From the NCBI GenBank assembly GCA_938016505.1, contig CALLWN010000213.1, positions 1 to 16,242 on the forward strand: 16,242 bases of DNA, read 5' to 3'. The notes under the pieces were generated by a model. The model ran no database searches. It saw only the letters and a list, made by a program, of their open reading frames with translations, and was not told the origin of the DNA. This DNA comes from an uncultured Sphingomonadaceae bacterium (GTDB lineage Bacteria > Pseudomonadota > Alphaproteobacteria > Sphingomonadales > Sphingomonadaceae). Each line of letters opens with the position of its first letter. Position 1 is the stretch's first letter. Positions 3,764-9,694 of the stretch are shown piece by piece. The translations under genes were made by a program, and so were the position numbers.

Positions 3764-3838
3764 TGGAGCGGGCGAAGGGATTCGAACCCTCGACTTCAAC
3801 CTTGGCAAGGTTGCGCTCTACCCCTGAGCTACGCCCGC
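3764..3838 (-). tRNA. tRNA-Gly (anticodon GCC), CCA encoded
   Basis: A complete cloverleaf reads on the minus strand. The acceptor stem is GCGGGCG/CGCCCGC, the D arm GCTC...GAGC, the anticodon arm CAACC-TTGCCAA-GGTTG with anticodon GCC, the T arm GAGGG-TTCGAAT-CCCTT (one G-U pair), and the end is discriminator U plus an encoded CCA at 3764-3766. Length is 75 nt with CCA. Its 3' end faces the decayed IS region, the usual side for integrase-driven insertion. No partial copy of the 3' end (att repeat) was seen in the window. Confidence 0.97.
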
Positions 3839-5526: not shown

Positions 5527-5750
5527 CACGACCGGAACCGCCTCGGCCCGGCCCGCAGGCGCCCGACCCTGCCCTTCTCGCCCTGCTGGTCTGCCCGCTC
5601 ACGCGCGCGCCGCTCAGCTTCGACGGGAGTGCCGCGTCGCTCATCTCGGCGCGCGGCACGCGGTTTTCCGTTGTGGATGGCGTGCCGGTCCTGCTGCCCG
5701 GCGACGCGGCCCCCGCGCGTGAGGCTGGGCTCAGGCCAGCTCGCCCCTGA
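5523..5750 (+). CDS. Trm112/UPF0434 (YcaR-like) small protein
   Basis: A 75-residue protein starting at GTG 5523 inside the previous stop (GTGA). The core LLALLVCPLTRAPLSFDG...LISARGTRFSVVDGVPVLLPGDA matches the Trm112-like UPF0434/YcaR family (usual LVCPVTKGPL ... YPIRDGIPVML). Eukaryotic and archaeal Trm112 activates methyltransferases; bacterial members are small, often single-Cys, and their role is unclear. Only one cysteine is present, so a four-Cys zinc site is not expected. The N-terminus is Pro-rich and poorly conserved. It closes the co-chaperone/LON-domain operon. Its last 20 bp overlap the 3' end of the convergent monooxygenase gene, so its final residues are coded on both strands. 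Confidence 0.85.
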   Translation: MTRPEPPRPGPQAPDPALLALLVCPLTRAPLSFDGSAASLISARGTRFSVVDGVPVLLPGDAAPAREAGLRPARP

Positions 5751-6975
5751 GCAGTGGCGGCAGGTCGCCTGCGGTTCCGCGCGCGATCGCGGCGAAGGCC
5801 CGCTTGGCCGGAGGGGCCCGCTCGACCAGGGCGAGCCCGAAGCGGCGCAGCGCCCGGACCGGCGCTCCGGGCAGACCGAAGAAGCGGGCGAGCGTGTCGG
5901 TTGCAAAGGCGGTGAGGCTGTTGTCGGCGCGACGCCAGCGTTCATAGCGGCGGCCGAGCGCCGGATCGCCGAGATCGAGCCCGCTGCGGGCACCCTCGAC
6001 GAGAACCTCGGTGAGGGTCGCCGCATCGCGCAGGCCGAGATTGAGGCCCTGGCCAGCGATGGGGTGGATGCCATGGGCAGCATCGCCGACGAGGATCAGC
6101 CTCTCGGCAACATAGCGTTCGGCGTGGTGGAAGCCGAGCGGCCAGGCGACAGCCGGGGCAATTGCCGCGACCGTGCCGAGGCGGCCGCCCAGCCGCTTTT
6201 CGATCTCGGCGGCAAAGCCGCGTGGACCGAGGCGGACCACAGCTTCGGCGGCGCCGCGCGCGACGGTCCAGACCAGCGCCGAGCGGTGCCGGCCATCGGC
6301 GAGGTCGCGCATCGGCAGGAGGGCGAACGGTCCGGATGGATAGAAGAGTTCGAGCGCGACGCCCTGGTGCGGGCGGGCGTGGGCAAGCATCGAGACGATG
6401 GCCGACGCCGGGTAGGACCAGTGCGCCAGCCGGATGCCGGCGGCCTCGCGGGTCGTGCTGCGGCGGCCATCGGCCGCGACCGCGACCGCAGCCGAGAGGG
6501 TGCGCCCGTCTGCCAGGCGCGCAGCCACGCCGGTTGCCCCGCGGTCGAGCCGGTCGATCGATGCAGGTGCAACGAGCCGGACAAGTGGCGTCTGCTGCAC
6601 CCGGTCGAGGAGGGCACGGCGCAGCGCCCGGTTCTCGACCATGATGCCGAGCGGCTCGGCCTGGCTCTCGCCCGGCCCGGCCTCGGCATCGAAGCGGATG
6701 ATCTCGGGGTTGAGCCCCTCGGCCACCTCGATCCGGTGGATCGGGCAGCCCTCGCGGTCGAGCAGGTCGCCGAGGCCGAGCGCGCGCAGCATGCGCGCGC
6801 TGGCGCTGGCGATGGCCGAGGCCCGGCCGTCGTGGCCCTCGGCGAGGTGGCTGGCCGGATCGGCTCGCTCGACGACCAGCGAGCCGATGTCATGGGCGGC
6901 GAGCGCCAGCGCGAGCGTCTGGCCGACGAGGCCGCCGCCGATGATGAGAACGTCTGCGCTGCTGGCATTGGTCAT
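5731..6975 (-). CDS. UbiH/UbiF/COQ6 family FAD-dependent monooxygenase
   Basis: A 414-residue flavoprotein of the ubiquinone-biosynthesis hydroxylase family, which adds hydroxyl groups to the ring of ubiquinone precursors. Motifs in order are the FAD loop IIGGGLVGQ (11-19) with the ribose-binding acidic E36 (VVERAD), a DG-type region near ADGRRSTTREAAGI, and the family signature VGDAAHGIHPIAGQGLNLGLRD with G297-D298. The length is normal. Which ring position it hydroxylates (UbiH, UbiF, UbiI or UbiL type) cannot be told from motifs alone. It is transcribed divergently from ftsK across a 361-bp spacer, and its end runs 20 bp into the convergent Trm112-like gene. No clear Shine-Dalgarno was seen before ATG 6975. 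Confidence 0.9.
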   Translation of the reverse strand: MTNASSADVLIIGGGLVGQTLALALAAHDIGSLVVERADPASHLAEGHDGRASAIASASARMLRALGLGDLLDREGCPIHRIEVAEGLNPEIIRFDAEAGPGESQAEPLGIMVENRALRRALLDRVQQTPLVRLVAPASIDRLDRGATGVAARLADGRTLSAAVAVAADGRRSTTREAAGIRLAHWSYPASAIVSMLAHARPHQGVALELFYPSGPFALLPMRDLADGRHRSALVWTVARGAAEAVVRLGPRGFAAEIEKRLGGRLGTVAAIAPAVAWPLGFHHAERYVAERLILVGDAAHGIHPIAGQGLNLGLRDAATLTEVLVEGARSGLDLGDPALGRRYERWRRADNSLTAFATDTLARFFGLPGAPVRALRRFGLALVERAPPAKRAFAAIARGTAGDLPPLLRGELA

Positions 6976-7046: not shown

Positions 7047-7067
7047 CCTGCCGACAGATCGGGCAGG
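7047..7067. promoter_or_regulatory. Inverted repeat, candidate activator site 1
   Basis: CCTGCC-N9-GGCAGG, containing TGCC-N9-GGCA (7049-7065), is centred at 7057. It lies about 117 bp before the predicted sigma-54 start site, where enhancer-binding proteins usually bind. The cognate regulator is unknown; it does not match the NtrC consensus. Confidence 0.4.
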
Positions 7068-7089: not shown

Positions 7090-7106
7090 TGCCCGTTTTT
7101 AAGGCA
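7090..7106. promoter_or_regulatory. Inverted repeat, candidate activator site 2
   Basis: A second TGCC-N9-GGCA dyad, centred at 7098, is 41 bp (about four helical turns) from the first and about 76 bp before the predicted start site. The arms match site 1 for four bases only, so coincidence remains possible, but position and spacing suit a sigma-54 activator pair. Confidence 0.4.
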
Positions 7107-7146: not shown

Positions 7147-7163
7147 TTGGCACGGTTCTTGCT
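7147..7163 (+). promoter_or_regulatory. Sigma-54 (RpoN) -24/-12 promoter, full consensus
   Basis: TTGGCACGGTTCTTGCT matches every defined position of the bacterial sigma-54 consensus (YTGGCACGrNNNTTGCW). The invariant GG is at 7149-7150 and GC at 7161-7162 with the correct spacing. The predicted start site is near 7174. Such promoters need an ATP-driven enhancer-binding activator; two candidate dyads lie upstream. Confidence 0.8.
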
Positions 7164-7173
7164 ATTGCCGGAC

Positions 7174-7251
7174 TGGGTGCCTTCGGGTTCCTGTGCTCGC
7201 TTCGGGACCTTGGTCCTTCCTGCGGCCCGGGCTTCGGCCCGGGCCTTTTTT
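7174..7251 (+). ncRNA. Predicted sigma-54-dependent small RNA (about 78 nt)
   Basis: A transcript from the predicted sigma-54 start to the intrinsic terminator would be about 78 nt and has no credible ORF with a ribosome site. Visible structure comprises a UUCG-capped hairpin at 7175-7192 with one internal mismatch, a small GGAC-CUUG-GUCC hairpin at 7205-7216, an open UUCCUGC stretch that could pair with Shine-Dalgarno regions, and then the terminator. This layout is typical of trans-acting small RNAs. Alternatively it could be an attenuated leader of ftsK, whose start lies 85 bp beyond the terminator. No known RNA family was recognised. Confidence 0.5.
7224..7251 (+). terminator. Rho-independent terminator
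   Basis: A perfect 9-bp stem, GGCCCGGGC (7224-7232) with GCCCGGGCC (7237-7245), has a UUCG tetraloop and is followed directly by six T residues (7246-7251). It acts on plus-strand transcripts and has no protein gene upstream on that strand, so it points to a separate short RNA. Confidence 0.92.
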
Positions 7252-7300
7252 CCGTTGCACGGTGGCACCACCCGGTCTGGCACAAAGCACGAACAAAGCC

Positions 7301-7330
7301 TTGACGCAGGCGCCGGCTTCAGCGCATCAT
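7301..7330 (+). promoter_or_regulatory. Possible ftsK promoter, near-leaderless
   Basis: TTGACG (7301-7306) is followed after 18 bp by CATCAT (7325-7330), a weak -10 match. The start site would fall at or next to the ftsK ATG (7337), which has no visible Shine-Dalgarno; a leaderless message would explain that. The -10 is poor, so this is tentative. Confidence 0.25.
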
Positions 7331-7336
7331 CGCCCC

Positions 7337-9694
7337 ATGGGAGCGTCAGCCGCCGGGCTTCTTGATGCAGCACCCTGGCGGCGCCGCGGCGGCGAGTCGC
7401 TCAGTGCCCGGGCGCGGGCCGGGTCGCGCCAGCTTCTCGCGAGGGTCGGTTCGCTGGTTGCCGGGCTGCTCCTGCTGGCGCTGGCGGCGGGTCTCGCGGT
7501 TGCGATCTGGAGCCACAATCCGGCCGATCCGTCGCTCAACACGGCAACGGCACGCGCAGCGACCAACCTGCTCGGCCGCCCGGGCGCAATCGTCTCTGAC
7601 CTGCTGCTCCAGGGCTTTGGTGTTGCGACGCTCGGCCTTCTGCCCGTGCTTGCGGGGCGGGGCGTGCGGCGAATGCTCGGCTGGCCGGTCCGCCGGGCCG
7701 ATGCGGCGCTCGGTCTTGCGCTCGGCGGGCTGGTGCTGCTCGCGGCGGGAGCGGGATTGCTGCGACAGGCACCGGTGGGGGGCATGGAAGCAGGTGCTGG
7801 CGGGCTCGCCGGAGTCGCCGCGCAGCGTGCAGCCCTGTGGGCGGCCGACCGGACTGGGGGCGAACCGCTCCTGGTGGCAACCCTTGCCGGCGCGGGGCTG
7901 GGGCTTGCCGGCGCGCTTCTCCTGCTTGGCGCCGGCAGCATCCGGCTTCGTCTGCCGCCATCCATCCGGTTCGGTCGCGACAGGGCGCCTGCCGCTGTTC
8001 GGGGAGCGGCCGACCCCGAGACCGGCCTAGGCGAGCGGCCGGCGCTGCCGGCAGACGTCGAGCAGCGCCCGGCGACACCTGCCGTGCGGCCACGGACATC
8101 GGGATCAACCTCCATCCCCTCGCATCGGGCCGAGCGCGAGCGCCAGCCGAGCCTGATGCTCGGCGACCGGGCCATGCTGCCGCCGCTCGCGCTGCTGAAG
8201 CCGCCTCCGCCCGTGACCGGAAGCGTGGACGAGGCTGCCCTCACCCAGAATGCCCGCCTGCTCGAGGCCGTGCTCGAGGACTATGGGGTGCGTGGCGCGA
8301 TCGTCGGCATCTCGCAGGGACCGGTGGTGACCCTCTACGAGCTCGAGCCGGCGCCAGGCATCAAGGCGAGCCGGGTCATCGGCCTTGCCGACGACATCGC
8401 CCGGTCGATGAGCGCAGTCTCGGCACGAGTCGCGGTCATCCCGGGGCGCAACGTGATCGGGATCGAGCTCCCGAACCGGAGGCGCGAGATGGTCGTGCTC
8501 TCGGAGCTGATCGCAAGCGACAGCTTCGAGCATGGCCGCGGCGCGCTGCCGATCGTGCTGGGCAAGGACATTGCCGGCGCGCCGGTGGTGGCCGATCTCG
8601 CACCGATGCCGCATCTCCTGATCGCTGGCACCACCGGCTCGGGCAAGTCGGTCGGGCTCAACGCCATGATCCTCTCGCTCCTCTATCGGCTGAGGCCCGA
8701 GGACTGCAGGCTCATCCTGATCGATCCGAAGATGCTCGAGCTGTCGGTCTATGACGGGATCCCCCACCTGCTTGCGCCGGTCGTCACCGAACCGGCCAAG
8801 GCGATCCGCGCGCTCAAGTGGGCGGTCGAGCAGATGGAGGAACGCTACCGCAACATGGCGCACATCAACGTGCGCGGGCTTGCCGCCTACAATGAGCGGG
8901 TGCGCGAGGCGATCCGGAAGGGGGAGAGCTTCACCCGCCGGGTGCAGACCGGTTTCGATGCCGAGGGGAACCCGGAATATGAGGAGCTGACGCTCAGGCT
9001 CGAGCCGCTGCCGCTCATCGTGATCGTCGTCGACGAGATGGCCGACCTGATGATGACGGCAGGCAAGGAAGTCGAGTTCCTGATCCAGCGGCTTGCCCAG
9101 AAGGCGCGCGCAGCGGGCATCCATCTCATCATGGCAACGCAGCGGCCGTCGGTCGATGTCATCACCGGGGTCATCAAGGCCAACCTGCCGACCCGCATCA
9201 GCTTCCAGGTGACGAGCAAGATCGACAGCCGCACCATCCTCGGCGAGCAGGGCGCGGAGCAGCTGCTCGGCAAGGGCGACATGCTCTACATGCCGGGCTC
9301 GAACCGGATCGTGCGCGTGCACGGTCCGTTCGTCTCCGACGAGGAGGTGGAAGCGGTGGCGCGCCACTGGCGGGCGCAGGGCACGCCCGACTATCTCGAG
9401 GATGTGACCGAGGAGCCCGAAGGGCCCGACGGGTTCGAGGACATGCCGCGCACGGCAAGCGCGAAGCAGGGCGCGATGGCGGTCGCCGGGGATGGCGACC
9501 TGCTTTCACAGGCGATCCAGGTGGTGGCCGTGTCGCGCAAGGCGACCATCTCCTATCTCCAGCGAACGCTCCGGGTCGGCTACAATTCGGCAGCCCGGCT
9601 GATCGAACAGATGGAGCAGATGGGCCTGGTCTCGGCACCCGACCATGTGGGGCGGCGCGAAGTGCTGATGGACGAGGCTGGCAACCGGATCTGA
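7337..9694 (+). CDS. ftsK: DNA translocase FtsK
   Basis: A 785-residue septal DNA pump that clears and aligns chromosome termini during division. Four N-terminal transmembrane segments are visible (about 36-57, 84-106, 123-142 and 178-200), followed by a short Pro/Arg-rich linker of about 100 residues. The motor domain has Walker A GTTGSGKS at 431-438 and Walker [13 protein letters not shown] with D566-E567. The C-terminal gamma winged-helix domain (about 722-785: [20 protein letters not shown], then [15 protein letters not shown]) reads KOPS DNA and activates XerCD. Length is normal for alphaproteobacteria, with a short linker compared with E. coli. ATG 7337 is chosen because the first helix follows properly; extending upstream to 7193 would read through a strong terminator. 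No Shine-Dalgarno is visible. Confidence 0.96.

Follow-up and report, generated by a model that had tools for sequence, protein, structure and literature searches.

A predicted NtrC- and sigma-54-activated small RNA gene between ubiH and ftsK in a lineage of sphingomonads

The stretch of DNA analysed here (16,242 nucleotides, referred to as the window) contains, between ubiH and ftsK, what the comparison of genomes supports as a gene for a short non-coding RNA, conserved in related genera. We hold with considerable confidence that the gene would encode a trans-acting small RNA, activated by NtrC and sigma-54 and probably assisted by Hfq, and that it would be a free-standing gene of the NtrC regulon. 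This reading is sequence-based, resting on the promoter, enhancer-like sites, RNA structure, conservation and the presence of NtrC with a GAFTGA motif, of RpoN and of Hfq; from these we infer NtrC binding, transcription, the nitrogen response and the use of Hfq by the small RNA. A lineage-specific RNA with a clear promoter, enhancer and fold offers an entry to post-transcriptional nitrogen control in sphingomonads.

Promoter and structure of the RNA

A −24/−12 element of the type TGGCAC-N5-TTGCW is the consensus of sigma-54 promoters. The perfect form occurs once in the 16-kb window, at positions 7147–7163 of the forward strand (TTGGCACGGTTCTTGCT, with TTGGCACG as the −24 and TTGCT as the −12 element), compared with a chance expectation of 0.02 (200 shuffles, 4 of which held one), confirming the full-consensus sigma-54 promoter of the initial annotation. 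When up to two mismatches are allowed the window contains 6 elements against 6.5 expected, and only the perfect match is therefore informative. The element is also kept in close relatives, a check that the initial annotation had proposed: the TGGC core of the −24 element and the TG of the −12 element are invariant in all 21 loci that carry the RNA. The third base of the −12 triplet varies, giving TGA in 16 loci and TGC in 5, the window among the latter, and in the same genomes the promoters of P-II genes (all 15) and of amtB have TGC; TGA versus TGC at the promoter of the RNA may tune promoter strength. The stretch between the −12 element and the RNA is weakly conserved, with no more than 0.64 bits except at the first base, which has 1.0 (20 loci, G004 left out), and the distance from the −24 element to hairpin 1 is 28–31 bases in all 21 loci and 29 in 15 of them. 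Because the C of the −12 element sits at 7162, the start of transcription is predicted near 7174 (7174–7175). The rpoN gene is present in all 40 genomes searched, 8 of them carriers of the RNA, with a partial RpoN match in the window's own fragmented assembly.

The small RNA gene is placed at 7174–7251 of the forward strand, a conserved block with covarying structure whose start is deduced from the −12 element; the promoter element ends about 12 bases before this start. The predicted length of about 77 nt and the conserved, covarying fold support the structured RNA of 75–80 nt that had been proposed. The 77-nt fold is stabler than its shuffles (z −2.2), as is that of a slightly longer stretch (z −3.0), and the 5′ half adopts different folds in the two. 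On this point the structure is weaker than the initial annotation had it, more than one fold being available to the 5′ half. Hairpin 1 (7176–7191, forward strand; GGUGCC-UUCG-GGUUCC) is part of the best fold in four of the five members of the genus, L002 being the exception, and is absent from the fold of the longer stretch and from the window's centroid, where a competing hairpin is found. In an 18-sequence alignment hairpin 1 is paired in 92% of cells, with no pair changed on both sides; judged by eye, it is rebuilt with other letters in L168 (GAUAGCGG-GAUU-CCGCGUC) and L189 (CGAUGCC-GUGAUC-GGCAUCG).

Between the two hairpins lies the conserved exposed segment UGUGCUCGCUUC (7192–7203, forward strand), a candidate interaction site. 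UGUGCUCGCU is kept in 15 of the 21 loci, which belong to genera g1, g37, g52, g86 and g109 and to a MAG, and the shorter exposed segment UGCUCGCU in 17, those without it being three g4 loci and G075. The free UUCCUGC segment to which attention was first drawn is particular to the window's genome; the conserved exposed segment is UGUGCUCGCU, which is likely, on the comparison of loci, to be the active segment of the RNA in place of UUCCUGC. Hairpin 2 (7204–7217, forward strand; GGGAC-CUUG-GUCCU) is part of the best fold in all five genus members and shows both-side changes at three of its five pairs (18 sequences). The intrinsic terminator (7224–7251, forward strand) has nine G-C pairs and a UUCG loop, with the stem at 7224–7245 and six U at 7246–7251, and carries compensatory changes at seven of the nine pairs in the same 18 sequences. 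Among the 6 terminator-like sites in the window it is the one with the most pairs, although the number of such sites is itself at the shuffle level (6.8). The UUCG loop and the six Ts are as first described; the distance of about 61 bp from the start is not, the stem lying about 50 and the RNA end about 77 bases past it.

The covariation alignment comprises 18 of the 21 sequences (G116, G177 and G075 left out) and was fitted to the structure, biasing in favour of the structure its figures of 96.2% standard pairs among paired cells and of 10 pairs with both-side changes. None of 500 shuffles matches the latter number, and sliding the pairing partners destroys the signal. The comparison of relatives called for at the outset finds the promoter, the spacing, the structure and the terminator conserved in 21 loci, with covariation in the paired regions of the 18 sequences aligned.

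Enhancer-like sites and the nitrogen signal

Two putative NtrC-type enhancer palindromes of the form TGC-N11-GCA precede the promoter in the window. The proximal palindrome (TGCCCGTTTTTAAGGCA, 7090–7106) is positioned 40 bp before the −24 element, and the distal one (TGCCGACAGATCGGGCA, 7049–7065) 81 bp before it and 41 bp from the proximal site. For NtrC of rhizobia the reported motif is TGC-N11-GCA with an A/T-rich region (PMC10746234). Across the loci the palindromes mostly take the form TGCC-N9-GGCA. Within 150 bp upstream there are 23 exact TGC-N11-GCA sites in 13 of 20 loci (G004 left out), compared with a mean of 2.2 and a maximum of 7 in 300 shuffle runs, and the 150 bp after the RNA, taken as a downstream control in the 20 loci, contain none. 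With G004 added, at least one exact site is present in 14 of the 21 loci, the window included, and two palindromes 40–41 bp apart in 10. The exact form is absent within 150 bp in the other 7 loci, four of which have a one-mismatch version and three none.

A combined pattern of palindrome and promoter, TGC-N11-GCA N30-60 TTGGCA-N6-YTG, was run on 14 carrier genomes and gave 40 matches, with 0 for the reversed pattern. Eight of these are the small RNA, 15 lie before P-II genes, 1 before amtB and 16 elsewhere, and only 8 of the 14 carrier genomes match the small RNA in this way. P-II genes are known NtrC targets. The P-II matches are on the same strand as the gene and at most 190 bp before it. 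The distance from palindrome to −24 element is 41–43 or 52 bp for P-II and amtB and 40–41 or 53 bp for the eight RNA loci matched by the pattern; in other RNA loci the nearest exact palindrome is 64–71 bp from the −24 element. The palindromes and −24/−12 promoters before P-II genes (15 sites, loci L095–L119) and before the one amtB (PF00909; L074, positions 1501–1573) would constitute a readable NtrC regulon for the carrier lineage. NtrC scores above its curated cut-off in 13 of the 14 carrier genomes, the exception being G042 (67% complete), and the sigma-54 contact motif GAFTGA is found in the best NtrC match of all 14, that of G042 lying below the cut-off. In this the carriers differ from Caulobacter, whose NtrC is described as being without GAFTGA (PMC10274813).

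The inducing signal is most likely nitrogen, acting through NtrC. Nitrogen, carbon or motility had been named initially; the palindromes common to the RNA and to P-II and amtB point to the first. Since NtrC-type candidate sites lie in the promoter region, the RNA is probably a new nitrogen-stress RNA. TGC-N11-GCA palindromes alone are no proof of NtrC over another activator such as NtrX, and the presence of several NtrC-like proteins in the genomes, the difference between the −12 element of the RNA and that of the P-II promoters and the 7 loci lacking exact palindromes would all suit a sigma-54 small RNA driven by NtrX or by an uncharacterised enhancer-binding protein. We nevertheless regard such an activator as quite unlikely, as similar palindromes at similar distances precede P-II genes and one amtB.

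Genomic context and distribution

The RNA gene is flanked by a divergent ubiH/COQ6-type hydroxylase gene (5731–6975, reverse strand; TIGR01988, 390 bits) and, downstream, by ftsK (7337–9694, forward strand), which has its ATG at 7337 and FtsK_SpoIIIE, alpha, gamma and 4TM domains. The ubiH gene is on the same side of the RNA in all 21 loci, with an extra ORF intervening in L021. That ftsK follows on the same strand in each of the 20 loci whose stretch extends far enough, starting in the window 86 bases past the last T of the terminator, would be expected if the promoter served ftsK through a sigma-54 leader with an attenuator admitting transcription into the gene under some condition. This arrangement is very unlikely: the terminator is the best supported helix, and in G057 the RNA is intact although about 1.3 kb, including a PIN-like ORF and an ORF in the opposite orientation, separates it from the start of ftsK, so that the RNA is not always directly upstream of ftsK. 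Furthermore, of 23 non-carrier loci, 11 retain ftsK near ubiH in the flanking sequence retrieved and have no element, indicating that absence of the RNA is not only a matter of rearrangement. The evidence from these loci favours the free-standing small RNA gene. It is extremely improbable that the locus encodes a small protein on a short mRNA or extends FtsK at its N-terminus. A GTG frame at 7193 does run open into ftsK in the window, and among the 14 loci having that GTG it stays open for 200 codons or more in 4 (G000, G299, G091 and G158); short frames contained entirely in the RNA stretch occur in 4 of 20 loci and are similar only between the two g86 genomes. Against this reading, the GTG is absent in 6 of 20 loci, its frame ends after 7–139 codons in 10 of the 14, indels are not multiples of three and the changes follow base pairing. 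No frame of 8 or more codons lies wholly inside the window's RNA, in agreement with the initial annotation, which saw no credible ORF.

Several other features of these loci were recorded. In G057 the PIN-domain-like ORF and the opposite ORF (L201, 12097–12866) were judged from their translations. At 7279–7305 the window has GGCACAAAGCACGAAC followed by CTTGAC, which recurs closely before ftsK in three of four genus relatives and partly in G001, and is perhaps ftsK's own promoter and an operator. The window also contains a BchP/ChlP geranylgeranyl reductase gene (114–1819) with a TspO gene directly after it, a pair that may mark the border of a photosynthesis gene cluster, and a tRNA gene on the reverse strand (3767–3838; Rfam RF00005, 70.9 bits).

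When 40 genomes, that of the window among them, were searched at the DNA level, each of the four remaining genus members proved to carry the block; a candidate on contig 38 of G016 (L006) in the same search is an unrelated terminator. A covariance model built from the five genus members matched in 13 of 298 family genomes. With later covariance models, the inspection of 30 loci anchored on ubiH (from 58 genomes that matched) and a scan of named genomes, the total came to 21 distinct loci, 20 of them in nine genera and one in a named MAG. In the last model search 19 of 397 genomes scored at least 42.6 bits, the next score, 34.1, being unrelated, and the 204 genomes that matched at E up to 0.05 appear to be mostly terminator noise (six such matches inspected). 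G009, with 30.2 bits, was accepted as a carrier on the strength of its locus and promoter, and G330, from the carrier genus g109 and 81% complete, has a 25-bit match only. An order-wide sample of 196 genomes returned G000, G002, G091 and one false match. Seven inspected weak matches outside the locus (L052 and L190–L195), taken from G183 in one search and from scores of 34.1 bits and less in the last, are unrelated terminators without a −24/−12 element. A pattern search matched 44 of the 397 genomes, of which 14 match with no more than one mismatch and are carriers, and 30 match with two or three.

The UbiH tree of 40 loci, which represents one gene with a midpoint root, places 17 of the 21 carriers in one part with a single non-carrier, G040, among them, and 22 non-carriers on the other side, so that the carrier label changes 2 times compared with 13 in shuffles. 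G040 (L145) retains ubiH and ftsK, separated by a short gap that contains no RNA, a state that looks like loss. The named carriers are Thermaurantiacus, Sandaracinobacter, Sandaracinobacteroides, Sandarakinorhabdus MAGs, Glacieibacterium and MAGs named to higher ranks only. Glacieibacterium, Sandaracinobacteroides, Sandarakinorhabdus and Thermaurantiacus are reported as one clade, Sphingosinicellaceae (PMC12210278), which is also the NCBI family of T. tibetensis and S. neustonicus. NtrC seems here to have acquired an RNA arm within one family.

Proposed action and comparison with known small RNAs

Under nitrogen limitation, phosphorylated NtrC would occupy the palindromes about 40–105 bp upstream of the −24 element and contact sigma-54 RNA polymerase at 7147–7163, whereupon transcription of an RNA of about 77 nt would begin and halt at the RNA's own terminator. 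The product would consist of a 5′ hairpin, the exposed UGUGCUCGCU, a second hairpin and the U-tailed terminator. It would most likely regulate distant mRNAs through short stretches of base pairing, helped by Hfq, which is present in 16 of 17 carriers searched, and UGUGCUCGCU is the likely contact segment. A search of 13 genomes with the 12-base complement AGCGAGCACAGG recovered the RNA gene itself in all 13 and only 2 places outside it, compared with 4 for a reversed control. Duplex energies between 50 nt of the RNA and 19 P-II and 9 ftsK start regions were at shuffle level (z −1.5 to 2.4), some of the P-II starts having been set at the domain match instead of the true start codon. As these target tests were negative, the trans action of the small RNA is one that we infer. 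That UGUGCUCGCU is unchanged in 15 loci while its 12-base complement is kept in no other gene of the 13 genomes suggests a different, though unlikely, mode, in which protein binding, and not antisense pairing, would be the RNA's main way of working; if so, the Sphingosinicellaceae lineage would have in it a decoy or cofactor RNA triggered by nitrogen.

The predicted small RNA, taken as an Hfq-assisted, NtrC-activated regulator, resembles in its regulation MmgR (alpha-r8; Rfam RF00519 suhB) of Sinorhizobium meliloti, a 77-nt Hfq-dependent RNA with three stem-loops whose transcription is reported to be induced by NtrC and for which RpoD and RpoN motifs are listed (PMC7143759). The two are alike in length, in the number of stem-loops, in their alphaproteobacterial host and in the NtrC induction and Hfq dependence proposed here. 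By score the small RNA is outside RF00519: against a cut-off of 41 bits L010 reaches 23.7 and the window 15.4, the other 10 loci are unlisted at E up to 1, and the match leaves out hairpin 1. The motif CCUCCC, which recalls the anti-Shine-Dalgarno of MmgR, follows hairpin 2 in some g1 and g109 loci and is absent from the window and from g86, g13, g4 and g52. SorX (RF02784, cut-off 46.6 bits) likewise gives 25.8 bits in L009 and 24.7 in the window, scores that rest mainly on the terminator, and no Rfam family matches the small RNA at its cut-off. We take SuhB of Sphingopyxis granuli to be perhaps a member of RF00519, and its sequence was compared with that of the small RNA only through this family. 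SuhB, of 61 nt, is reported to have been demonstrated by experiment in this sphingomonad as a small RNA that acts in trans and depends on Hfq; it follows growth rate and carbon catabolite repression and represses thnR (PMC6563040). It is the one sphingomonad small RNA found in the literature searched, from which subscription papers were mostly absent and in which no NtrC-regulon small RNA of sphingomonads was found.

As the initial annotation stated, small RNAs under sigma-54 occur in Pseudomonas, where CrcZ and NrsZ are reported to be RpoN-dependent (PMC8395346), and RpoN motifs before small RNAs are listed for Bradyrhizobium too (PMC5082802). NrsZ of Pseudomonas aeruginosa is intergenic and driven by NtrB/C and RpoN under nitrogen limitation, a control like that proposed here; it is about 226 nt, processed, located beside ntrC and activates rhlA (PMC8395346). 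The small RNA, in contrast, lies between ubiH and ftsK, with ntrC matches above cut-off on other contigs or more than 250 kb away. CrcZ of the same species, a 407-nt Hfq decoy with A-rich motifs driven by CbrB (PMC8395346), shares the sigma-54 promoter and differs from the small RNA in length, about 77 nt in the latter, and in its activator, for which we propose NtrC. GlnZ of Enterobacteriaceae is described as an RNA arm of the NtrC regulon that is produced by cleavage from the 3′ end of the glnA mRNA (PMC9731577); the proposed role is the same, whereas our gene is free-standing. NfeR1 of Sinorhizobium meliloti has an upstream TGC-N11-GCA NtrC site, as here, but is NtrC-repressed and has a sigma-70 promoter (PMC10746234), unlike the sigma-54 promoter and proposed activation of the small RNA. 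The −24/−12 spacing and the palindromes common to nitrogen genes, both of which are found at this locus, probably place it with the NtrC/sigma-54-activated small RNAs.
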